64,000 nt of DNA from Candidatus Sulfotelmatobacter sp. (GTDB taxonomy: Bacteria > Vulcanimicrobiota > Vulcanimicrobiia > Vulcanimicrobiales > Vulcanimicrobiaceae). Under the pieces are notes generated by a model, which did not search any database, was not told the DNA's origin, and was given only the letters and a program-made list of their open reading frames with translations. The position numbers and the translations under genes are program-made. Shown here one piece after another: positions 5,054 through 44,438 of this stretch. How positions within the stretch are numbered: the stretch's first letter is position 1; the number at the start of each line of letters is the position of its first letter. The stretch spans positions 1-64,000 of the forward strand of contig DATJRY010000013.1 of the NCBI GenBank assembly GCA_035504415.1, given 5' to 3'.

Positions 5054-6037
5054 CTAACCGCGGAAGTGGAAGTCCAGGCCGATGTTGACGGTGGTCAGAC
5101 GGACCCAATCGTTGGTCGCGCCGGCCGGGTTGGGCAACCCGTCGCGGATCGTGCCGAACGGGTAGTTGAGGCTCGTCTCTTCCTTCAGGTTGACGATCGC
5201 GGCGTGGAACACCAGCCACGGCGCGAACACCTTGACCAGACCGGCGACCGTCACGTTGTAGTATTCCGGACCCGGGTCGGAGGCGAAGTAGTCCGCCAGG
5301 CGTCCGAACTGGAAGAACGGGATGATCGTGTGGTTGTGGTCGATCGGAACGTGCACGGCAATCGACGCCGGATAGATGAAGCCACTGCCGCCATAGGGTT
5401 GATAGACGGGGTTCGACTGCGGCAGACCGGTGAACGCGTTGATGATCGTCGGCGTCTGCCACGGCGCGGCCAATGCGGCGTTGTACGGGTGGTCGACGTA
5501 CTGAGCCTGCAGGTCGAAGTCGAAGATCGGCCCGATCGAACTCAGCGGCCCGAAGGCGTAGTTCACGCCGACGAACGGACCGTGGTAGCCGATCCAGCCG
5601 GGGTTCTGGGCGTCGGCCGGGCAGCATTCGCGGCTGCGGTTCTTGTAACCGGCGGTGATCGAGACGCCCGAGCCGGCGTTCCATTTCAGACCTTCGGTGT
5701 CGAAGCGGTCGCGCAATTGCCCGATCGGGACGCGTGCCGGACCGATCTGGAGCGTGTCCAGGGTGAAGTCGGCGTTGTCGTGCGAGTAATAGATGCTCAG
5801 CGCCTTGTTGATCGTGATGTTGGCGCCGTAGTCGAGGAACGTTTCGTTGGTGTCGCCGGCCGCCGTCTGATTCTGTTCGGGCTGACCGCCGTTCGTCGAC
5901 ACGACGTAGAGCGGGGTCACGGTGAGAACGACGCGGCTGAATGGGTCGTCGGCGAAGGCGGGAGCGGCTGTCGTTGCCGCCAGCACTACGCCGAACGCGG
6001 CGGCGGCCGCCTTGGCGAAGAGAGTGCGTCCTGTCAT
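5054..6037 (-). CDS. Putative outer-membrane beta-barrel protein
   Basis: Exported protein of 327 aa. The ATG at 6037 has a strong AGGAGAG SD and gives a classical signal peptide ending APAFA before DD. The mature part lacks hydrophobic helices and alternates polar and aromatic residues; it ends LDFHFRG, a beta-signal-like terminus with alternating aromatics. This fits a porin-like barrel in the outer membrane, but I recognise no named family. Two adjacent cysteines (RECCPAD) are unusual for a barrel. It is monocistronic, with its own terminator at 4979-5009 and a long upstream region. An upstream in-frame extension of 52 codons is not needed. Confidence 0.65.
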   Translation of the reverse strand: MTGRTLFAKAAAAAFGVVLAATTAAPAFADDPFSRVVLTVTPLYVVSTNGGQPEQNQTAAGDTNETFLDYGANITINKALSIYYSHDNADFTLDTLQIGPARVPIGQLRDRFDTEGLKWNAGSGVSITAGYKNRSRECCPADAQNPGWIGYHGPFVGVNYAFGPLSSIGPIFDFDLQAQYVDHPYNAALAAPWQTPTIINAFTGLPQSNPVYQPYGGSGFIYPASIAVHVPIDHNHTIIPFFQFGRLADYFASDPGPEYYNVTVAGLVKVFAPWLVFHAAIVNLKEETSLNYPFGTIRDGLPNPAGATNDWVRLTTVNIGLDFHFRG

Positions 6038-6230
6038 CGGCTCTCCTGAAAGAGATGAGGAGTGGTGAGACGCTCTCGCTGCAGGTTCCGAGGCCCGGAC
6101 GTGGGGAGCCGCTCCGAAACGACGCGCCCCATGAAGAAAGTCCCGTGCGTCTACGCCGACGCCCGAAACTCCTTTGTGCCCTTGATCGTGCAAAAAGAAC
6201 GTTTTTCCGTTAAGCAGCCCTGTGAGGCAA

Positions 6231-6260
6231 TACTTAACACCCCAACGACCTGCTCGTCAA
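6231..6260 (-). promoter_or_regulatory. Possible promoter in the region upstream of the barrel gene
   Basis: The 6038-6306 gap holds no gene. Its 6180-6280 part is AT-rich against the genome. On the minus strand TTGACG (6255-6260) lies 18 bases from TAAGTA (6231-6236), a good -35 with a weak -10. Use would give a leader of about 190 bases, long enough for post-transcriptional control, though I see no recognisable riboswitch. Confidence 0.3.
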
Positions 6261-6306
6261 ATAAGTTCCTGAAAAGGGTGCCGCTAGGCCTGCCGGGGAC
6301 CGCGGC

Positions 6307-6822
6307 CTATTCGTCGCTCGACGTGCTCGAATGGGCCGCCCAGGGGCGGTGCGTGACCGTCTCGGTGGCGGCGGAGGCCAGCGCCACGGAGCAGCGCTGC
6401 AGCGCGCTCATGAGCGTGTCGAACTGCTCGGGGCCGAGCTCGTCGCGCAAATAGTTCTCGATCGCGGCGGCCCGCGTCTCGGCGCGCGCGAGGAGATCCT
6501 CGCCGGCCGGCGTCAGCCGCGTCTCCAACGTGCGCCCGCCGGTCGGGCACGGAACCCGCCGGATCAGGCCGCGGGCCTCGAGCCGCGCGACGGTCGCGCT
6601 CATCGCCTGGGGGGTCACGAAGCTCGCCCGGGCGAGCTCGGCGGCGGAAATGTCGGCGTTCATCGCGATGAGCGCCATCGCCAGGAACTGTTGACCGGTC
6701 AGGCCCAGCTCGTCGAGCTCGCGCTCGAGGGCCGCTTTCGAGACGCCTTGGGCGTACTTCAGGACGGCGAGCAGGTGGCCACTGTAGCAGTAGAGGGCGG
6801 CGTCGGGGAGGAGATTTTCCAT
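6307..6822 (-). CDS. MarR-family transcriptional regulator
   Basis: Winged-helix regulator of about 171 aa. The DNA-binding core reads ISAAELARASFVTPQAMS, the recognition helix region, followed by the wing GLIRRVPCPTGGRTLETRLT and the helix LTPAGEDLLA. The start is uncertain: ATG 6822 or ATG 6840, neither with a clear SD; the TTG further upstream (6879) falls inside a hairpin and is unlikely. It lies downstream of a small exported protein whose promoter carries a MarR-like palindrome, so the two may be co-transcribed and autoregulated. A ligand cannot be predicted; Cys115 in the wing might allow redox sensing. Confidence 0.85.
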   Translation of the reverse strand: MENLLPDAALYCYSGHLLAVLKYAQGVSKAALERELDELGLTGQQFLAMALIAMNADISAAELARASFVTPQAMSATVARLEARGLIRRVPCPTGGRTLETRLTPAGEDLLARAETRAAAIENYLRDELGPEQFDTLMSALQRCSVALASAATETVTHRPWAAHSSTSSDE

Positions 6823-6840
6823 GGGGCGGGGTCCGGCCAT

Positions 6841-6863
6841 GGCCGTCCCACTTCGGGACGGCC
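6841..6863. promoter_or_regulatory. 9-bp inverted repeat ahead of the MarR gene
   Basis: GGCCGTCCC, a five-base spacer, then GGGACGGCC: a perfect nine-base inverted repeat immediately upstream of the candidate ATG at 6840. It has no T-tract, so it is not a classical terminator. It could be a protein-binding site or an RNA hairpin limiting marR translation. Confidence 0.35.
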
Positions 6864-6875
6864 ACGACGGGTCTT

Positions 6876-6892
6876 GCAAGAAACCTTCTTGC
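6876..6892. other. Short hairpin between exported protein and MarR genes
   Basis: GCAAGAA, loop ACC, TTCTTGC: a perfect seven-base inverted repeat starting seven bases after the stop of the exported-protein gene on the minus strand. There is no U-tract, so it may be a weak attenuator or a processing or stability element between the two genes. Confidence 0.3.
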
Positions 6893-6898
6893 GCGGGG

Positions 6899-7291
6899 CT
6901 AGGCGTGCCAGGTGGTGCCGTCGCTGAACGTGACGGCCTCGACGTCGCACGAGGTCGGGGCGGCGACGGTCGGGACGAAGTCGTTCGTGATCTCGGTGCC
7001 GGGGGCGAAGCTGCCCTGGGCGACGATGGTCTGCGTCTGGCCGCCGGCGTGGACGGCGAACTCGACGGCGGTCGCCGGGCGGTCGCCGTTGTTGACGAAC
7101 GAGATGCTCAGGTCGCCGGAGCTGAACGTCGGGGACGCGCCTTCGTTGTAGGCGCCGTTCTCCTGCACGTTGACCGCGCAGCCGACGACGGAGACCGGAG
7201 AGACGCCCTGTTGTGCGCTGGCGGGGAGGGCCGCGGCCGACACGCCCAGGGTGGCAGCGGCGAAGGAGGCGAGGAGAAGCTTGCTGGTCAT
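6899..7291 (-). CDS. Small exported protein of unknown function
   Basis: 130 aa with a clear signal peptide ending PASA before QQ. The mature protein (about 103 aa) has two cysteines, near residues 38 and 115, that could form one disulfide, and is beta-rich by appearance (repeated polar/hydrophobic alternation, NGD and GT turns). I recognise no family. No good SD precedes the ATG at 7291; AAAGGAC lies too far upstream. The promoter region 7349-7378 carries an AT-rich palindrome and the next gene encodes MarR, so expression is probably MarR-controlled. Confidence 0.7.
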   Translation of the reverse strand: MTSKLLLASFAAATLGVSAAALPASAQQGVSPVSVVGCAVNVQENGAYNEGASPTFSSGDLSISFVNNGDRPATAVEFAVHAGGQTQTIVAQGSFAPGTEITNDFVPTVAAPTSCDVEAVTFSDGTTWHA

Positions 7292-36719: not shown

Positions 36720-36783
36720 GGGCGACCCTCGGGGTTCCACACGGCGACCGGGAAACCCGGTTGGTCCGCAGGAAGGGGTGGGC

Positions 36784-38853
36784 GTGCGGGTCGTTCTCGT
36801 CGACAACGTGCTGCTGGAGCAAACGGGCACCGGGTTCACGGCGACGCTCCAGCCGCACTTGGGCTTGATCTCGCTGATCGCGGTGCTGCGGGAGCTGGGT
36901 CACGACGCGCGCCTGCTCGACCCCAAGCTCGACCTGGTGCGCGGCGAGGTCGCGCTCGGGCCCCACTTCTACGGCGCGGTGGCGGAGCGGATTCTGGCCG
37001 GCGATCCGGACGTCGTGGGCTTCACCTCGCTGGGCTGCAACTTCGCCTGCACGGTGCGCATCGCCGCGCGCGTCCGCGCGGCGCGGCCGGCGCTGCCGAT
37101 CCTGTTGGGCGGCCCGCACGCCAGCATCGTCGACGAGCCGATCCTCGCCGCGTACCCGCAGTTCGACGCGATCGTGCGCAACGAGACCGAGGCCGTCATC
37201 GGCGCGGTCCTCGACGCGCTCGGCGGCAACGGCAGCCTGGCCGACGTCCCCGGGGTGACCTACCGGCGCGAGGGCGCGATCGCGCGCACCGCCGGCGCCG
37301 GCCCGCTGCTCGAGCTCGACGCGCTGCCGTTCCCCGCCTATGACGTCTATCCGATCGCGGAGCTGGCGCTGACGACGCTGCGCGTCGATGCCGGGCGCGG
37401 CTGCCCGTTCGGCTGCACGTTCTGCTCGACGGCCAGCTTCTTCGGCCGGCGCTACCGGCTCAAGTCGCCCGAGCGGCTGGTCGGCGAGCTCGACCGCCTG
37501 GCGCAGACCTACGGCGTGCGGCGCTTCAACCTGACCCACGACCTGTTCACCGTCGACGCGCGGCGCGTACGCGCGTTCTGCGAGGAGGTCGCCGGCCGCG
37601 GCTACGCCTGGACGTGCTCGGCGCGCATGGATTGCGTCGACGACGCGCTGCTCGCGCAGATGCGCGACGCCGGCTGCAGCGCGATCTACTACGGCGTCGA
37701 GACCGGTTCGACGCGCTTGCAGCCGCTGGTCGGCAAGCATCTCGACCTGGCGCTCTACCGGCCGATCGTCGAAACCTCGTTGCGGCTGGGGCTCGACACG
37801 ACGGTCTCGTTCATCACCGGGTATCCGAACGAGCTGGCGTCCGACGCGGACGCGACGCTGGAGCTGCTCGGCGAGAGCATCGAGACCTATCCCGACGCGC
37901 TCTCGGTGCAGCTGCATCTGCTCACGCCCGAACCCGGCACCGCGCTGCACCACGAGTACGCGCACGCGCTGGCATACGACGGTCACGTCAGCGACTTCAA
38001 CTTCCCCGCGCTGGTCGACGGCGACGAAGAGCTGATCGCCGCCGACCCGGCGTCGTTCGTCTGCCACCACTACTTCGCCGCCGGTCTGCCGCGCGAGGAG
38101 CACCTGGCCGCGACCGAAGGGTATCGCATCCTCTACGGCCTGGGGCACGCGCTGGTGCGCGCGATCCGGCGCGCCGCCGACATGCCGTTCGCGGCGCTGG
38201 TGCGCGCGGTGGGCCGCTTCGTGCGCGGCTATCCGGGTCCGGCCGACGCCGCGCTGGTCGCGTTCCTCGAGGCGCGTTTCGGCGCCGGTTCGTCGTTCGC
38301 CGAGATCGTGCGCTACGGGCGCGCGGCCGCGAGCCTGCGGCCGGACGACGCGCCGCGCGCCGCGCACGTCGACGCCGGCACGCCGCTGCGCCTGGCGCGC
38401 ACCATCGCGCCGGTCGCGTTCGGACGCGACGGCGCCGAGCTCACCCGCCGTGTGCGCGCGGGGCTGCCGCTCGACGAGCCGGCCCTGCCGTCGTCATGGT
38501 GGCTGACCTTCGGCGACGGGCGCGCGGCCGGAGCGTCGTTCGCCGTCGATCGCGTCACCTACGAGCTGGCGTGCGTCTTGCGCGAGGGGACGACGCGCGC
38601 ACAGCTCGAGCAGCGCTTCGAGACCGCCGACGTCGAGGCGCGCTTGTGGTCGCTGAGCCTGATGAGCGGCCTGTGTTACGCCGACGACGCGACGGCCGGC
38701 TCGTCGTCCGTCAGCCCCAGCCGGCGCAGCATCGCCGGATCGGCGGCCGCCGGCGCCGCCGGCGGGACGTACAGCGTCGACATGGTCGGAATCGCCGCCT
38801 CGGCGAGCCGCGCCAGCGGCACGCGCTCGATCTCGGGATCGCAGATCTCGTAG
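36784..38853 (+). CDS. B12-binding-type radical SAM enzyme, candidate RiPP tailoring enzyme
   Basis: 689 aa. Residues 1-150 form a Rossmann-like cobalamin-binding-type domain (VDNVLLE, DVVGFTSLGCNF, LLGGPHASI) without the DxHxxG base-off motif. The radical SAM core has GCPFGCTFCS with Cys207, Cys211 and Cys214 for the 4Fe-4S cluster, then YYGVETGSTRLQPLV and SFITGYPNE. After about 590, DRVTYELACVLREGTTRAQL resembles a small winged-helix or PqqD-like domain. GTG 36784 has AGGAAGG seven bases ahead. The last 178 bases overlap the methyltransferase gene on the other strand, and the encoded tail there is low-complexity, suggesting a lost earlier stop. Its position argues for modification of the borosin precursor; chemistry is inferred. 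Confidence 0.8.
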   Translation: MRVVLVDNVLLEQTGTGFTATLQPHLGLISLIAVLRELGHDARLLDPKLDLVRGEVALGPHFYGAVAERILAGDPDVVGFTSLGCNFACTVRIAARVRAARPALPILLGGPHASIVDEPILAAYPQFDAIVRNETEAVIGAVLDALGGNGSLADVPGVTYRREGAIARTAGAGPLLELDALPFPAYDVYPIAELALTTLRVDAGRGCPFGCTFCSTASFFGRRYRLKSPERLVGELDRLAQTYGVRRFNLTHDLFTVDARRVRAFCEEVAGRGYAWTCSARMDCVDDALLAQMRDAGCSAIYYGVETGSTRLQPLVGKHLDLALYRPIVETSLRLGLDTTVSFITGYPNELASDADATLELLGESIETYPDALSVQLHLLTPEPGTALHHEYAHALAYDGHVSDFNFPALVDGDEELIAADPASFVCHHYFAAGLPREEHLAATEGYRILYGLGHALVRAIRRAADMPFAALVRAVGRFVRGYPGPADAALVAFLEARFGAGSSFAEIVRYGRAAASLRPDDAPRAAHVDAGTPLRLARTIAPVAFGRDGAELTRRVRAGLPLDEPALPSSWWLTFGDGRAAGASFAVDRVTYELACVLREGTTRAQLEQRFETADVEARLWSLSLMSGLCYADDATAGSSSVSPSRRSIAGSAAAGAAGGTYSVDMVGIAASASRASGTRSISGSQIS

Positions 38854-39482
38854 ACGGCCGCCTTGTAGACGACCACCTCGTGTCCGGCCGGGTAGTGCGG
38901 TGCGAGCACCTCGGCCAGCACCGCCAACCCGTCGCGGTTCCACGGACCACCGCCCTCGCGCATGCCGCGCTCGGCGATCACGCCGATCTGCCAGATGATC
39001 AGCGCGCTGCGTGGATCGAAGACACGCCGGTGCACGAGGAAGTCCGTCGCCTCGAAGCTCTGGCAGCCGCCGTCGCCCGGATCGACGCCCAGGTCGGCGA
39101 ACAGACAATCCTCCGCCGACACCGCCGCGAACATCGTGGCGGGATAGCCTTCGGCGCGCGCGCGGCGGATCGACTCGTGGGTCGGGAACGCGAACACGCC
39201 GGGATGGCCGTAGACCGCCAAACACACGTCGAGGCCGTCGCGCACGGCGCCCAGCACGTGCTCGACGATCTCTTCGTAGGTGCGCCGGCGCGGCTTACCG
39301 ACCTCGTAGTGCGCGTGCAGGGGCTCCGCGCTCGGATTGAGCCCGCGCAGCCAGTGCAGCGTGAGCGAGTCGGCCGACAGAAAGAAGACCTTCTGCGCCC
39401 GCTCGATCGCGACCAGCGTCTCCGCCGTGACCTGGGCGCCGACCCGGATGCCGGTGCCGACGACGCACAACGATCCCGCCAC
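38676..39482 (-). CDS. OphMA/SonM-like peptide alpha-N-methyltransferase (split borosin type)
   Basis: 268 aa of the tetrapyrrole-methylase fold. Landmarks match the borosin enzymes, not cobalamin or siroheme methylases: VVGTGIRVG at 5-13, the R65/Y69 pair in RRRTYEE at the place of OphMA Arg72/Tyr76, YGHPGVF at 91-97, VSAEDCLFADLGVDP then GGCQSFEATDFL (about 121-149), EVVVYKAAVYEICDPE and TLYVPP near the C-terminus. It would use SAM to methylate backbone amides of a peptide. GTG 39482 lies 11 bases after the precursor stop; an ATG inside the precursor gene (39533) is a less likely start. Precursor and enzyme are separate genes, as in Shewanella SonA/SonM. Confidence 0.87.
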   Translation of the reverse strand: MAGSLCVVGTGIRVGAQVTAETLVAIERAQKVFFLSADSLTLHWLRGLNPSAEPLHAHYEVGKPRRRTYEEIVEHVLGAVRDGLDVCLAVYGHPGVFAFPTHESIRRARAEGYPATMFAAVSAEDCLFADLGVDPGDGGCQSFEATDFLVHRRVFDPRSALIIWQIGVIAERGMREGGGPWNRDGLAVLAEVLAPHYPAGHEVVVYKAAVYEICDPEIERVPLARLAEAAIPTMSTLYVPPAAPAAADPAMLRRLGLTDDEPAVASSA

Positions 39483-39493
39483 GGTGCGCCCGC

Positions 39494-39742
39494 CTAGCGC
39501 AAGTCGATCATGAAGACCATCAGCACCGGCCATGACCCGCCGCCCGGGTTGGGTGGGAACTCCGCCTGGATCGCCTTGCTGATGCGATCGGAGTCCTTGC
39601 TCAGGATCGCGTCCTGCTGCGCCGCCGAGAGCCCCGCGGCGCTCATCGCCGCGCGCGCGTCGGCGTCGGATTTCCGATGGGTGGCGGCGGCGGCGGGATC
39701 ACGCGCAAGCGCGAGCAGATAGTCGGCGATGGATGCGGCCAT
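39494..39742 (-). CDS. Split borosin precursor peptide
   Basis: 82 aa. A helical, acidic leader matches the borosin-binding-domain pattern: IADYLLALARDP, then ARAAMSAAGLSAAQQDAILS and KDSDRISKAI. A linker FPPNPGGG follows, then a hydrophobic end SWPVLMVFMIDLR (70-82), the presumed core, rich in Val, Leu, Ile, Met and Phe like known alpha-N-methylated cores. The ATG has a strong GGGGAGGA SD, consistent with high precursor output. The methyltransferase gene follows at 11 bases and the ATPase regulator precedes it by 34 bases. Length, gene order and core type fit SonA-like precursors. The cleavage and methylation sites are inferred. Confidence 0.82.
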   Translation of the reverse strand: MAASIADYLLALARDPAAAATHRKSDADARAAMSAAGLSAAQQDAILSKDSDRISKAIQAEFPPNPGGGSWPVLMVFMIDLR

Positions 39743-39776
39743 GGTCGTCCTCCCCGGTTCAGGTGCGAGCTGGGTG

Positions 39777-42233
39777 CTATCGCCCGTCCGCCTCCTCGGC
39801 CGCTTGTTCCTCGTCGAACAGCGCACCGATGCTGGCGAGTCGGTCGAAATCGGTTCCGCCGAGCCGCTCGATGAGCTCCGCCCGGGTGCGATCGCGCAGC
39901 CGCGGAATCAGGAACACCGAGCGGAACGGCAGCGCGCCGGCGCGCGCTTGCGCGAAGCCGAGCAGTCGCGCCGCGCGCAGGTCGTCGCCCGCCCGGACGT
40001 GGACCGCCGCCGCGACGATGATCGCTTCCAAGAACGCGATCGGGTTCTGCGCCTCGAGCAGGTCGGCGATCGCGCGCGTGACGTGCACGCGCGCCTCGGC
40101 GATACGCCCTTCGGCGAGCAGCGCGTGCGCGAGCCGGTAGTGCGCGGTCGCGATGCGGCGCGCGTCGCGCAGCCGTTCGGTCAGCGCCAGCGAGCGTTGC
40201 GAGAGGTCGACGGCGCGCGGGGCGTCGTCGACCCACAGCGCGGCCTCGGCGAAGCCGCGCAGCACCAGTGCCGCGTCGCGGTCGCGCTTGGTGCGCGCCG
40301 TGACTTCGTCGGCTTCGGCGAACCGTTCGAGCGCCTGCGAGAGCTCGCCGGTGTAGAGGTGCACGAAGCCGAGCAGCGCCAGCATGCGGCCCGCCGCGAT
40401 CGCGTCGAAGGCCGCGCGCGCCAGCGCGATCCCTTCGTGCAGCGCTTCACGCGCATCGCCGTAGCGGCCCAGGTTGATCAGCGCCTGCGCGCGATACGCG
40501 AGCGTCTCGTAGGTGCCGGTCGCGTCCGCGACGTCGCGGAAGCCGGCCAGCGCGCGCTCCGCCAGCGAGAGCGTCTCGTCGGAGAACAGGTGCACGCGCA
40601 CCGACTCGAGCAGCACGCGCGAGGCGAGCTGCGGCGAGAGGCCGTCGGAGGCCGCACGCGCCAGCCCGAGCCAGTACGCGCCTTCCTGGAAACGCCGCGC
40701 GTCCCAGAACGGCCCGAGCAGCGCCGCGATCTGCGCGCCGGACGCGACGTCGGCGCGCTCGCCGAGCGTCCAGGTCAGCGCCGCGCGGACGTGCTCGATC
40801 TCGCGCTCGACTTGCGCCAGCCAGACGTCCTCGGGCAACTGCCGGCTGGTCGTGCGCGCGCGGTGCGCGAACGCCAGCTCCATCGCGACGTGGCGCGCGC
40901 CGACCTCGGCGCGCTCGCCCAGCTCGTCCAGCCGCGAGAGCGCGTACGTGCGGGCCGACTCGAGCAGATGGAAACGGCCTTCGCCGTCGTCGTCGGCCTC
41001 GGCCACGACCAGCGACTTCTCGACCAGCGAGACCAGCAGCTCGGGGACGTCCTTGGCATCGATCGCGCCGCCGCCGCACACCGGGATCGCCGCTTCGAGC
41101 GTCCACGAACCGGCCAGCACGCCGAGACGGCAGAACACCGTCGCCTCGTCGTGAGTGAGTAGCTCGAAGCTCCAATCCATCAGCGCACGCAGCGTCCTTT
41201 GCCGGGGAACGTTCCGTCGGCCGGCGGTGAGCAGTCGCAGTCGTTCGTCCAATCGCGCGGCCACCTGCGCCACGCCCAGAGCGGGAATCGTCGCCGCCGC
41301 CAGCTCGAGCGCCAGCGGGATGCCGTCGAGACGACTGCAGATCGTCGCCACGGCGGCGCCGTTGCGTTCGGTCAACTGGAAGCGTGGGTCGTGTGCGGCG
41401 GCGCGCTCGATGAACAGCTCGACCGCGCCGAAGCGCAGGGCGTCGTCCGGCCCGACGGGGGCGCCTTCGTCGGGAACGGTGAGCGGCGGCAGGCGGTAGA
41501 CGACTTCACCGTCGACGTGCAGCGGCTCGCGGCTGGTCGCCAGCACGTCGACGTACGGACAGCGCGCCGCGATCTCGGCGGTGACGCGCGCGGCCTCCTC
41601 GACGACGTGCTCGCAGTTGTCGAGCACCAGCAGCAGCGAGCGAGCGCGCAAGCCCGCGACGATGATGTCGAGCAGCGGCCGATCGGCCTGCTCCGGGATC
41701 TCGAGCGCGGCGGCGACCTCCTGCGCGACCAGCCGCGCGTCGCTGACGTTGGCCAGCTCGACCACCCACACGCCGTCGCCGTACCGTTCGAGCAGCTCGA
41801 AGCCGAGCTCGAGCGCGACGCGCGTCTTGCCGACGCCGCCGATCCCGGCGACGGTCACGACGCGACCGTCCGCGATCAGCCGGCGCAGCTCGCGCCGTTC
41901 CCCCTCGCGACCGACGAAGCGCGTGAGCGGACGGTTCAGGTTGTGGCGCCGGGCCGGCGCGGCCGGCATCGTCGTCGCGGTGACCAGCGTGAGCGGCGTC
42001 GGCCGCGTCGCCGCCGCTTCCAGACGCGCACGGTTCTCGACGTCGAGCTCGAGCGCTTCGATCAGGAGTGCGAGGGTTTGACGCTGCGGAACCTTGCGGC
42101 TCCCGCGTTCGAGCGTGCTGATCGCGTCCACGCTGAGCGTCGCGCGCTCCGCGAGGGCTTCCTGCGACAGCCCCCGCGCCAGCCGGAGCTGACGCAGGAG
42201 CCTGCCGAACGGCGCCCGCCCGGGTTCGTCCAC
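39777..42233 (-). CDS. XRE-family HTH / STAND-type ATPase / TPR regulator
   Basis: About 818 aa. N-terminal XRE helix-turn-helix (FGRLLRQLRLARGLSQEALA at 9-28, then VDAISTLERGSRKVP), NB-ARC-like ATPase with FVGREGERREL, P-loop GIGGVGKT (130-137), VLDNCEHV Walker B and GIPLALELAAA, then a long alpha-helical TPR region to the end. Such proteins act as ligand- or partner-triggered activators, many near antibiotic clusters. The start is probably GTG 42233 or 42236 behind GGGGGA; GTG 42320 is in phase. The borosin precursor begins 34 bases after the stop on the same strand, so it may regulate or be co-transcribed with it. Confidence 0.82.
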   Translation of the reverse strand: MDEPGRAPFGRLLRQLRLARGLSQEALAERATLSVDAISTLERGSRKVPQRQTLALLIEALELDVENRARLEAAATRPTPLTLVTATTMPAAPARRHNLNRPLTRFVGREGERRELRRLIADGRVVTVAGIGGVGKTRVALELGFELLERYGDGVWVVELANVSDARLVAQEVAAALEIPEQADRPLLDIIVAGLRARSLLLVLDNCEHVVEEAARVTAEIAARCPYVDVLATSREPLHVDGEVVYRLPPLTVPDEGAPVGPDDALRFGAVELFIERAAAHDPRFQLTERNGAAVATICSRLDGIPLALELAAATIPALGVAQVAARLDERLRLLTAGRRNVPRQRTLRALMDWSFELLTHDEATVFCRLGVLAGSWTLEAAIPVCGGGAIDAKDVPELLVSLVEKSLVVAEADDDGEGRFHLLESARTYALSRLDELGERAEVGARHVAMELAFAHRARTTSRQLPEDVWLAQVEREIEHVRAALTWTLGERADVASGAQIAALLGPFWDARRFQEGAYWLGLARAASDGLSPQLASRVLLESVRVHLFSDETLSLAERALAGFRDVADATGTYETLAYRAQALINLGRYGDAREALHEGIALARAAFDAIAAGRMLALLGFVHLYTGELSQALERFAEADEVTARTKRDRDAALVLRGFAEAALWVDDAPRAVDLSQRSLALTERLRDARRIATAHYRLAHALLAEGRIAEARVHVTRAIADLLEAQNPIAFLEAIIVAAAVHVRAGDDLRAARLLGFAQARAGALPFRSVFLIPRLRDRTRAELIERLGGTDFDRLASIGALFDEEQAAEEADGR

Positions 42234-42368
42234 CACCCATCCCCCGATTGAGTCCGCCACACCCAGTGCGGACCCGAAGCGACGGGACGTGTACTCATAC
42301 GAAGGTAGGCTTTCCCCCACCGTTGCCTGCCCCGTACGCCTTTCGGGGGCGACCCGGACCGCGTTGAC

Positions 42369-42422
42369 TTAGAGCGCCTTCGATCGGAGCGCTTTGGAGC
42401 TCGTCGATTGATCGATGGTCAT
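42369..42422 (-). CDS. Possible 17-codon leader ORF upstream of the ATPase regulator
   Basis: ATG at 42422 with GGAGG eight bases ahead, then MTIDQSTSSKALRSKAL and a TAA at 42369-42371. It lies between the palindrome and the regulator start on the regulator strand, where an attenuator-type leader could be. No similar peptide is known to me. Only the SD and clean stop support it. Confidence 0.3.
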   Translation of the reverse strand: MTIDQSTSSKALRSKAL

Positions 42423-42523
42423 GCGGGCGTCCTCCACACTCGAACGGTTGCCATCATGATGCGCGAGGACGAAGGGGCGAACCACCGACAACCCGTTTGT
42501 CCGGGTCGTACGCACGCCGCGCC

Positions 42524-42553
42524 GCATACTTGAAACGATCGTTTCAAGTATGC
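42524..42553. promoter_or_regulatory. 30-bp perfect palindrome, probable TetR operator
   Basis: Half-site GCATACTTGAAACGA followed directly by its exact reverse complement, with no mismatch over 30 bases. It ends 14 bases before the ATG of tetR at 42568. TetR dimers bind such palindromes, and AT-rich sequence here stands out from the genome. It contains TTGAAA and TATGC promoter-like hexamers, so repression by occlusion is likely. It may also affect the divergent regulator. Confidence 0.8.
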
Positions 42554-42567
42554 TACCTTCGGAGCCC

Positions 42568-43170
42568 ATGACCCGGACGGTCGACCTCGCCAACCGGTCC
42601 AAGCTGCTCGAGCGGGTCGCGGCCTATGTCCTCGACCACGGGCTGGCCGATCTCTCGCTGCGCCCGCTGGCCGAGGCCGTCGAGAGCAGCCCGCGCACGC
42701 TGCTCTACCACTTCGGGTCGAAGGAGCGGATCGTCGCGGCGGTGCTGCGCGGGATCCGAGAACGGCAACAGGCGCTGTTCGCGCGGCTGGGCGGCGAGCA
42801 GACCACGCCGGTGGCGATCTGCCGCGCGGCCTGGGCCTACATGAGCGACCCGGCGGTCGGGCCGGCCCTGCGGCTGTTCTTCGAAACCTACGCGCTGGCG
42901 CTGCGCGCGCCCGAGCGCTTTCCCGGCTTTCTCGAGGGCGCCGTCGAGGACTGGCTGCGGTTCCTCGCCGCGCCGCTGTTGGCCCAGGGCATGGAGCCGG
43001 CGCGGGCGCGCGCCTTCGCCACCGTCGTGCTCGGCGGTTACCGCGGCTTCATGCTCGACTACGCCGCGACCGGCGACGCCGAGCGCGTCGGCGCCGCCAT
43101 CGATCTGTGGAGCGCCGCGCTCCACGCGCTCGAACCCGCACAGGAGAACGACGATGCTCACGCGCCGTAG
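42568..43170 (+). CDS. TetR-family regulator of the adjacent MFS pump
   Basis: 200 aa. TetR helix-turn-helix at about 15-60 (DLSLRPLAEAVESSPRTLLY, HFGSKERIVAAVLRG), followed by a C-terminal dimer/ligand domain with aromatic residues. ATG 42568 has GGAG six bases ahead, placing the start just after the 30-bp palindrome. Its end overlaps the MFS start by 17 bases, so the two form an operon; self-repression relieved by a pump substrate is the usual scheme. Confidence 0.88.
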   Translation: MTRTVDLANRSKLLERVAAYVLDHGLADLSLRPLAEAVESSPRTLLYHFGSKERIVAAVLRGIRERQQALFARLGGEQTTPVAICRAAWAYMSDPAVGPALRLFFETYALALRAPERFPGFLEGAVEDWLRFLAAPLLAQGMEPARARAFATVVLGGYRGFMLDYAATGDAERVGAAIDLWSAALHALEPAQENDDAHAP

Positions 43171-44431
43171 CGCCGCCCTCACGTTCATCTTCGTCACCGT
43201 CCTGCTGGACATGATCGCGCTGGGGATCATCATCCCGGTCTTCCAGCCGCTCTTGTTGAGCTTCACCCACGGCGACTACACGAGCGCGTCGATCGCCAGC
43301 GGCGCCTTCTCGGTGCTGTTCGCGCTGGTGCAGTTCTTCGCATCGCCGATCTTGGGGACGCTCTCGGATCGCGTCGGCCGCCGCCCGGTGGTGCTGCTCT
43401 CGAATCTCGGCACCAGCCTGGACTACGTGATCCTCGCGGTCGCGCCGAACCTGGGCTGGCTGCTGGTCAGCCGCGTGCTGGCGGGCGGGACGACGGCCAG
43501 CATCGCCGTCGCAAGCGCCTACATCGCCGACGTCACGCCCGAGGACAAACGCGCCGGCGCATACGGCATGCTCTCGGCGGCGTTCGGTGCCGGCTTCGTG
43601 ATCGGTCCCGCCATCGGCGGCCTGCTCGGCGCGCACGGTCTGCGGCTGCCCTTCTGGGTCGCCGCCGTGCTGAGCCTGATCAACTTCGTCTACGGCCTGC
43701 TGGTACTGCCCGAGTCGCTCGCCCCCGAACATCGCAGCGCGTTCTCGTGGGCGCGCGCCAACCCGCTCGGCTCGCTCAAGCTGCTGCGCCGCCACGCCGA
43801 GCTGGCCGGCCTCTCGCTGGCGAACCTGTTCGGCTTCGTCGCGCACGAAGCGCTGCCGCAGCTGTTCGTGCTCTACGCGCTCTATTCGTACGGCTGGACG
43901 CAGAGCACCATCGGGCTCTCGCTGGCGGTGGTCGGCGTGTTGACGATCGTGATCTCGGCGCTGGTCGTGCAGCGCGTGGTCAACCGGTTCGGCGAGCGCC
44001 GCGCGGTCGTGATCGGGCTGTTCCTCGGGGCGCTCGGCTACGCGCTCTTCGCCGGCAACCAGATCGTGTTCTGGGCCGGCATCGTGATCAGCATGTTCTG
44101 GACGGTCGGCACGTCGGCGTCGCAAGCGCTGATGACGCGCCGGGTGGAAAAGCACGAGCAGGGCGAGCTGCAAGGTGCGATCAACCTGCTGCGCAGCGCC
44201 GGGACGCTGGTCGGACCGCTGCTGTTCGCCGGCATCTTCTCGTACTCGGTCAGCGGCGCGCACGGGTGGAAAGCACCCGGCGCCGCCTGGTTCGCCGGCA
44301 GCGCCCTGCTGCTGATCTCGCTCGTCATCGCCTGGCGGGTGACGACCGCCGACGACGACGTGCGCGCGATCGTCGACACCGCCGCGGCGCTCGAGTCCTC
44401 ACTCCCCGCCGAGACGCCGCTGGTGGACTAG
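43154..44431 (+). CDS. MFS transporter, TetA-like (DHA1) 12-TM efflux pump
   Basis: 425 aa with about 12 hydrophobic helices. FVTVLLDMIALGIIIPVFQP in TM1 is the TetA/DHA1 motif, motif A reads GTLSDRVGRRPVVLLSN, and AAFGAGFVIGPAIGGLLG is motif C of H+ antiporters. An AGGAG SD precedes the ATG, which lies inside the end of tetR. It probably exports a drug-like compound. Converges on sigB with a few bases between stops. Confidence 0.9.
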   Translation: MLTRRSAALTFIFVTVLLDMIALGIIIPVFQPLLLSFTHGDYTSASIASGAFSVLFALVQFFASPILGTLSDRVGRRPVVLLSNLGTSLDYVILAVAPNLGWLLVSRVLAGGTTASIAVASAYIADVTPEDKRAGAYGMLSAAFGAGFVIGPAIGGLLGAHGLRLPFWVAAVLSLINFVYGLLVLPESLAPEHRSAFSWARANPLGSLKLLRRHAELAGLSLANLFGFVAHEALPQLFVLYALYSYGWTQSTIGLSLAVVGVLTIVISALVVQRVVNRFGERRAVVIGLFLGALGYALFAGNQIVFWAGIVISMFWTVGTSASQALMTRRVEKHEQGELQGAINLLRSAGTLVGPLLFAGIFSYSVSGAHGWKAPGAAWFAGSALLLISLVIAWRVTTADDDVRAIVDTAAALESSLPAETPLVD

Positions 44432-44438
44432 CGCGGCG

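Follow-up and report, generated by a model that had tools for sequence, protein, structure and literature searches.

An ApyD-like, B12-binding radical SAM protein carrying an RRE-type domain, encoded tail-to-tail with a split-borosin locus

The window, the whole 64,000-nucleotide stretch of DNA that was analysed, encodes at positions 36784..38853 of the forward strand an ApyD-type radical SAM protein (689 codons) that has a B12-binding domain and a C-terminal RRE, and the gene converges on a borosin-type methyltransferase and a BBD-led precursor. This neighbourhood of radical SAM gene and BBD precursor or precursor remnant, found in every member of the clade to which the protein belongs, is newly described here relative to the part of the borosin surveys that was covered. 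We consider it fairly probable that the protein is an RRE-bearing, cobalamin-dependent RiPP maturase that C-methylates the neighbouring precursor, with N-methylation added where the methyltransferase exists.

The radical SAM protein and its C-terminal domain

The reading frame opens with a GTG at 36784, alaS lying divergently 64 bp away, and stays uninterrupted up to the stop at 38853; its start residue is shared with orthologues (MRIVFADN, MRVVFVDN). Two Pfam domains were found above cut-off, B12-binding at residues 24-142 (E 7e-14) and Radical_SAM at residues 204-362 (E 2e-17), together with a single CxxxCxxC, the [4Fe-4S] motif CPFGCTFC at residues 207-214 (37402..37425, forward strand), which is invariant in 13 homologues. 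In an AlphaFold2 model with a mean pLDDT of 83, the first ~500 residues match the solved B12-dependent radical SAM enzymes AprD4 (Z 24.9), OxsB (24.5), MgmA (23.6), CysS (23.5), TsrM (23.1) and TokK (22.0). The B12-binding domain, the cysteine motif and the matching fold, the last taken from a predicted model, place the protein in class B, the B12-dependent radical SAM enzymes, in agreement with the sequence-only reading of a B12-type enzyme with an N-terminal cobalamin-like domain.

Residues 533-634 (38380..38685, forward strand), modelled alone from an 11-member alignment (pLDDT 75), matched the RREs of TigE (Z 9.1), MccB (9.0), LynD (8.7) and TbiB1 (8.4; 78/88 residues), followed by ThcOx (7.7), NGO1945 (7.3), CteB (7.2) and TglI (7.0). 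Nearly all matches at Z 7-9 are RREs, the unrelated ones at similar Z being mainly carbamoyltransferases (GdmN, NovN), and the best Foldseek match, a chain of the TglHI complex, had a probability of 1.00 but an E of 0.019. By sequence, the window's own domain gave zero matches in Pfam, and among the C-terminal domains of 11 family members PqqD matched two and NGO1945_C three. Its identity is visible only from structure and from the domains of some relatives, and on the strength of the model we assign it to the RREs with a confidence that is good though short of complete. A small helical peptide-recognition or PqqD-like module had been predicted at residues 590-650; the module itself is real, a winged helix of RRE type by its predicted fold, but begins somewhat earlier, residues 590-650 covering its second half. 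The profile search proposed for it left the window's own domain unmatched and found PqqD and NGO1945_C in some relatives.

The radical SAM and methyltransferase genes overlap tail-to-tail by 178 bp, which corresponds to the last ~55 codons of the former. This tail (residues 635-689; 38686..38850, forward strand) is predicted to be disordered, with pLDDT below 50, and is shorter or unlike in orthologues, a clear equivalent being missing in relatives. Since it is also antisense to the 3′ end of the methyltransferase gene, we read it as a run-on rather than a domain, and the functional part probably extends no further than about residue 634. Among the window's genome (G000) and two relatives (G005 and G017), dN/dS is 0.33-0.42 for the core, in which the cysteine motif is retained, and 0.68-0.80 for the RRE region. 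These rates indicate purifying selection on the core, and the contrast between the two regions suggests a conserved catalyst joined to a fast-changing recognition domain.

Family placement

The best NCBIfam match of the protein was ApyD (NF050148), with 574 bits over residues 2-557; this lies below the equivalog cut-off of 750 bits, and the C-terminal part of the profile (562-645) was unmatched. The sequence-only reading had allowed that the protein might instead fall in a lipid or hopanoid methylase clade, and here the profiles scored far lower, at 130 bits for BchE, 121 for HpnJ and 73 for HpnR, none reaching its cut-off (481, 578 and 650). By these scores the protein is of RiPP type, neither a lipid nor a hopanoid enzyme. 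In a tree it forms a clade with its homologues from G005 and G017 (support 100/100), nested within an ApyD clade (100/100) that holds the radical SAM enzymes of apy-like clusters from G007, Streptomyces and Nitrospira. Such clusters comprise an MNIO, an ApyI-like RRE protein and an ApyS-like methyltransferase; that of G007, a congener (L061:7044-11735), encodes an MNIO, an RRE protein, the ApyD-like enzyme and an ApyS-like methyltransferase, and next to it lies another radical SAM gene (5865-7040).

The whole genome of the window gave zero matches to the MNIO family (PF05114) and so lacks a standard apy cluster. The window's precursor is likewise without the apy motifs, having no Cys (and so no CBX2-3G), ending in MIDLR and lacking a C-terminal Asp. 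On both grounds the enzyme is ApyD-like without belonging to the aminopyruvatide pathway, for which an MNIO in the cluster is class-defining (PMC11117315). Elsewhere, three Verrucomicrobia loci (L079, L080 and L081) encode ApyD-like B12-dependent radical SAM proteins with a C-terminal RRE-like domain outside any recognised RiPP cluster, and in L080 and L081 the gene converges with a kinase-TPR gene.

The borosin-type locus and its conservation

On the reverse strand, opposite the radical SAM gene and adjoining it as had been noted from the sequence, lie a SonM-like split-borosin alpha-N-methyltransferase (38676..39482; 268 aa from GTG 39482) and an 82-aa BBD-led precursor (39494..39742; core near ...NPGGGSWPVLMVFMIDLR). 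The methyltransferase matches SonM with an E of 8e-60, with Tyr, Arg and Tyr counterparts of SonM Y58, R67 and Y71 in the alignment. Its start is most likely GTG 39482, 11 bp past the precursor stop, rather than ATG 39533, because the resulting VAGSLCVV aligns with the SonM N-terminus. A discrete SonM-type N-methyltransferase and a separate BBD-leader precursor, the latter recognised by a profile of precursors directly upstream of such methyltransferases, make this a split-borosin pair; when the precursor was used as a phmmer query, SonA was not among the PDB chains matched. The precursor core, SWPVLMVFMIDLR, contains Trp and Phe and no Tyr, and a second precursor-like small gene was not found beside the radical SAM gene.

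Upstream of the precursor is an XRE/STAND (AAA, NB-ARC)/TPR regulator (39777..42236, reverse strand). The same island carries a TetR regulator and an MFS transporter (42568..44431, forward strand), weak candidates for possible export or immunity genes that were not found at the G005 locus. The cassette (36720-44438) sits between alaS and a sigma-factor operon and behaves as an island, since the conserved gene that follows the sigma factor in four congeners is alaS. In six borosin loci of the phylum (L066, L067, L175, L176, L177 and L065) the methyltransferase adjoins a gene for a large membrane-anchored protein, which may be a conserved borosin partner; the L066 protein, the only one scanned, has weak PDZ and GAF matches. 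In G110 (L179:8560-9576), an N-terminal BBD and the methyltransferase are apparently fused in one 338-codon frame.

Of 149 genomes searched in the phylum, four (the three clade members and G007) encode a full-length homologue of the radical SAM protein, and 23 a borosin methyltransferase of the window's kind. The BBD-precursor profile gave strong matches (E <= 1e-24) in 10 genomes, with the methyltransferase directly downstream in nine, G017 being the sole exception. A precursor of the window's kind, or its remnant, is present in 11 genomes that include all three clade members, a co-occurrence with a hypergeometric probability of 3e-4 when genomes are taken as independent, though they are not entirely so. 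In each of the three, the radical SAM gene lies tail-to-tail with the precursor or remnant, behind a STAND-type regulator, and this synteny spans related genomes of two genera, G017 belonging to the other genus.

The order in the window is regulator, precursor, methyltransferase and convergent radical SAM gene. G005 has a homologous regulator (56%), a precursor-methyltransferase fusion and a convergent radical SAM gene (62%) that is still open. The fusion (L060:10007-10432) is an open frame of 141 codons joining the first ~19 residues of the precursor to the C-terminal half of the methyltransferase (MALIAEYLLLLARDSDAAG-LQSYEATDF...), the deletion having removed the precursor core and the SAM-binding part of the methyltransferase. 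The G017 gene extends past the end of contig C119 onto C128; the contig ends overlap in frame by 24 bp, a sequence unique to this junction within the genome. The part on C128 converges on a BBD precursor (E 3e-16), overlapping it by 81 bp, with no methyltransferase between the two; the STAND regulator upstream of the precursor is 40% identical to the window's, with a cyclase domain in place of XRE, and the core, ERLSVPLNFIICSPPKP, has one aromatic residue only and no Tyr. An intact borosin methyltransferase was not found in G017 (99% complete), the sole match being a relic with a broken frame at a different locus. Contig C145 of G017 (L064:3385-3990) carries a second borosin-type locus, in decay, where a BBD-like frame precedes pieces of a methyltransferase that lie in different frames and have lost an internal stretch. 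Both relatives had initially counted as cases of the radical SAM gene without a borosin, and were dropped as such on finding the fusion remnant in G005 and the precursor on the abutting contig in G017.

At 80 further ApyD-like loci drawn from a broad collection, with flanks of up to 10 kb, neither a borosin methyltransferase nor a noteworthy BBD profile match was present, and within 5 kb of 15 additional borosin loci in the phylum zero CxxxCxxC proteins were called. G007 has its ApyD-type enzyme in the apy-like cluster and its borosin pair at a separate place. The pairing is therefore not widespread; it is real and, among the loci searched, confined to the window's bacterial family. The sequence-only reading, in which the enzyme accompanies borosin methyltransferases, survives in altered form, as a link to the borosin-type precursor in three of three clade members and not to the N-methyltransferase, and its proviso that homologues might lie away from borosin genes describes the distant ApyD homologues and not the clade. 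Since an intact methyltransferase was not found in G017 and half of that in G005 is deleted, the radical SAM gene tracks the precursor rather than the methyltransferase.

Proposed function and relation to known systems

The presence of the gene beside such a precursor or its remnant in three genomes, even in one without the methyltransferase, points to the same peptide as its probable substrate. By analogy with ApyD, the nearest characterised relative, the reaction would be a C-modification, most likely C-methylation, of the BBD-led core. The C-terminal RRE would hold the precursor by its leader, its linker or both, the [4Fe-4S] cluster would cleave SAM to a 5′-deoxyadenosyl radical, and methylcobalamin would methylate an unactivated carbon in one of the core residues, in the way that ApyD methylates the C-beta of Tyr. 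The cores of the window and G017 have no Tyr, so the target residue would differ from that of ApyD. The SonM-like enzyme of the window's organism would add backbone N-methyl groups to the same core, and the radical enzyme of G017 would operate with no N-methyltransferase. A doubly N- and C-modified product could thus arise only in the window's own genome, given the state of the methyltransferase in the other two.

Several observations count against this assignment. It draws on three related genomes, in one of which (G005) the precursor core is destroyed; the genes are convergent, not co-directional; G007 keeps the two systems at separate loci; and the Tyr used by ApyD is missing from the window core. 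BBD leaders are folded bundles, and RREs usually take an extended leader strand, which also weighs against it. BBDs are not counted as RREs, and by published description they had not been observed in RiPPs of any other class (PMC8429565, PMC12710340), so a pairing of RRE and BBD would be a surprise.

The enzyme might instead share the island and its regulator while modifying a peptide encoded elsewhere (an ApyA-like one, for example), the BBD precursor being a co-inherited neighbour. The intact G005 gene beside a deleted core, the non-BBD precursors of distant ApyD relatives and the island setting between alaS and the sigma-factor operon would fit such an arrangement, which we nevertheless consider unlikely given the tail-to-tail placement in all clade members, a different genus included, the failure to find another candidate precursor beside the gene, and the MNIO-free genome. 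That a lipid or hopanoid B12-dependent methylase stands beside borosin genes by chance is extremely improbable: the weak HpnJ, HpnR and BchE matches that would speak for it are exceeded more than fourfold by the ApyD score, which together with the RRE structure matches already contradicts it, and each clade member adjoins a BBD precursor or remnant.

The enzyme could also act on the BBD precursor by crosslinking (C-C or other), epimerising or hydroxylating rather than methylating. In RiPP clusters, the B12-dependent radical SAM enzyme PbsB joins one aromatic side chain to another (PMC12257519), and the window core offers Trp and Phe; the single aromatic residue of the G017 core, however, means that an aromatic-aromatic link could not be common to both cores, and ApyD methylates. 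We regard this alternative as rather improbable.

If the enzyme C-methylates the BBD-led precursor, a BBD leader would be shown to work for an enzyme that has no relation to the N-methyltransferase, and two RiPP logics regarded as distinct would come together: a leader folded for borosin binding, and a radical enzyme guided by an RRE. The chances are about even that BBD leaders serve more than the borosin N-methyltransferases and that an RRE-bearing B12-dependent radical SAM enzyme was recruited to BBD-led precursors, giving N- and C-modified peptides in some species and, as in G017, a BBD-led RiPP without a borosin methyltransferase in others. The two-gene system of G017, precursor and radical SAM enzyme, makes the question directly approachable. 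Backbone N-methyl and side-chain C-methyl groups improve the stability and uptake of peptide drugs, and the window would provide a ready enzyme pair for peptides carrying both.

Among known systems, ApyD, an RRE-containing B12-dependent radical SAM enzyme that beta-methylates Tyr to beta-methyltyrosine in aminopyruvatide (PMC11117315), shares with the window protein the N-terminal B12 domain, the CxxxCxxC motif, the C-terminal RRE, the best profile and the clade; it differs in the sub-cut-off score of the window protein, the MNIO-free genome and a BBD-led precursor without Tyr, Cys motif or C-terminal Asp. The split (type IV-like) SonM/SonA borosins (PMC8429565) likewise have a discrete N-methyltransferase immediately following a BBD-led precursor whose C-terminal core is hydrophobic, unlike the window in lacking a convergent RRE-bearing radical SAM gene and unlike G017, where precursor and radical SAM gene stand without an intact methyltransferase. 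PbsB of the biphenomycin-like RiPPs, compared by description, is also a B12-dependent radical SAM maturase of RRE/MNIO clusters, but is an aromatic crosslinker that acts after the MNIO (PMC12257519). Pythonamide sets a precedent for a single RiPP that is both C-methylated, by the B12-dependent radical SAM enzyme EreB, and N-methylated on its backbone, by the FkbM enzyme EreM (PMC9259500); its proteusin leader and its FkbM-type enzyme are, unlike the window's pair, not of borosin type.
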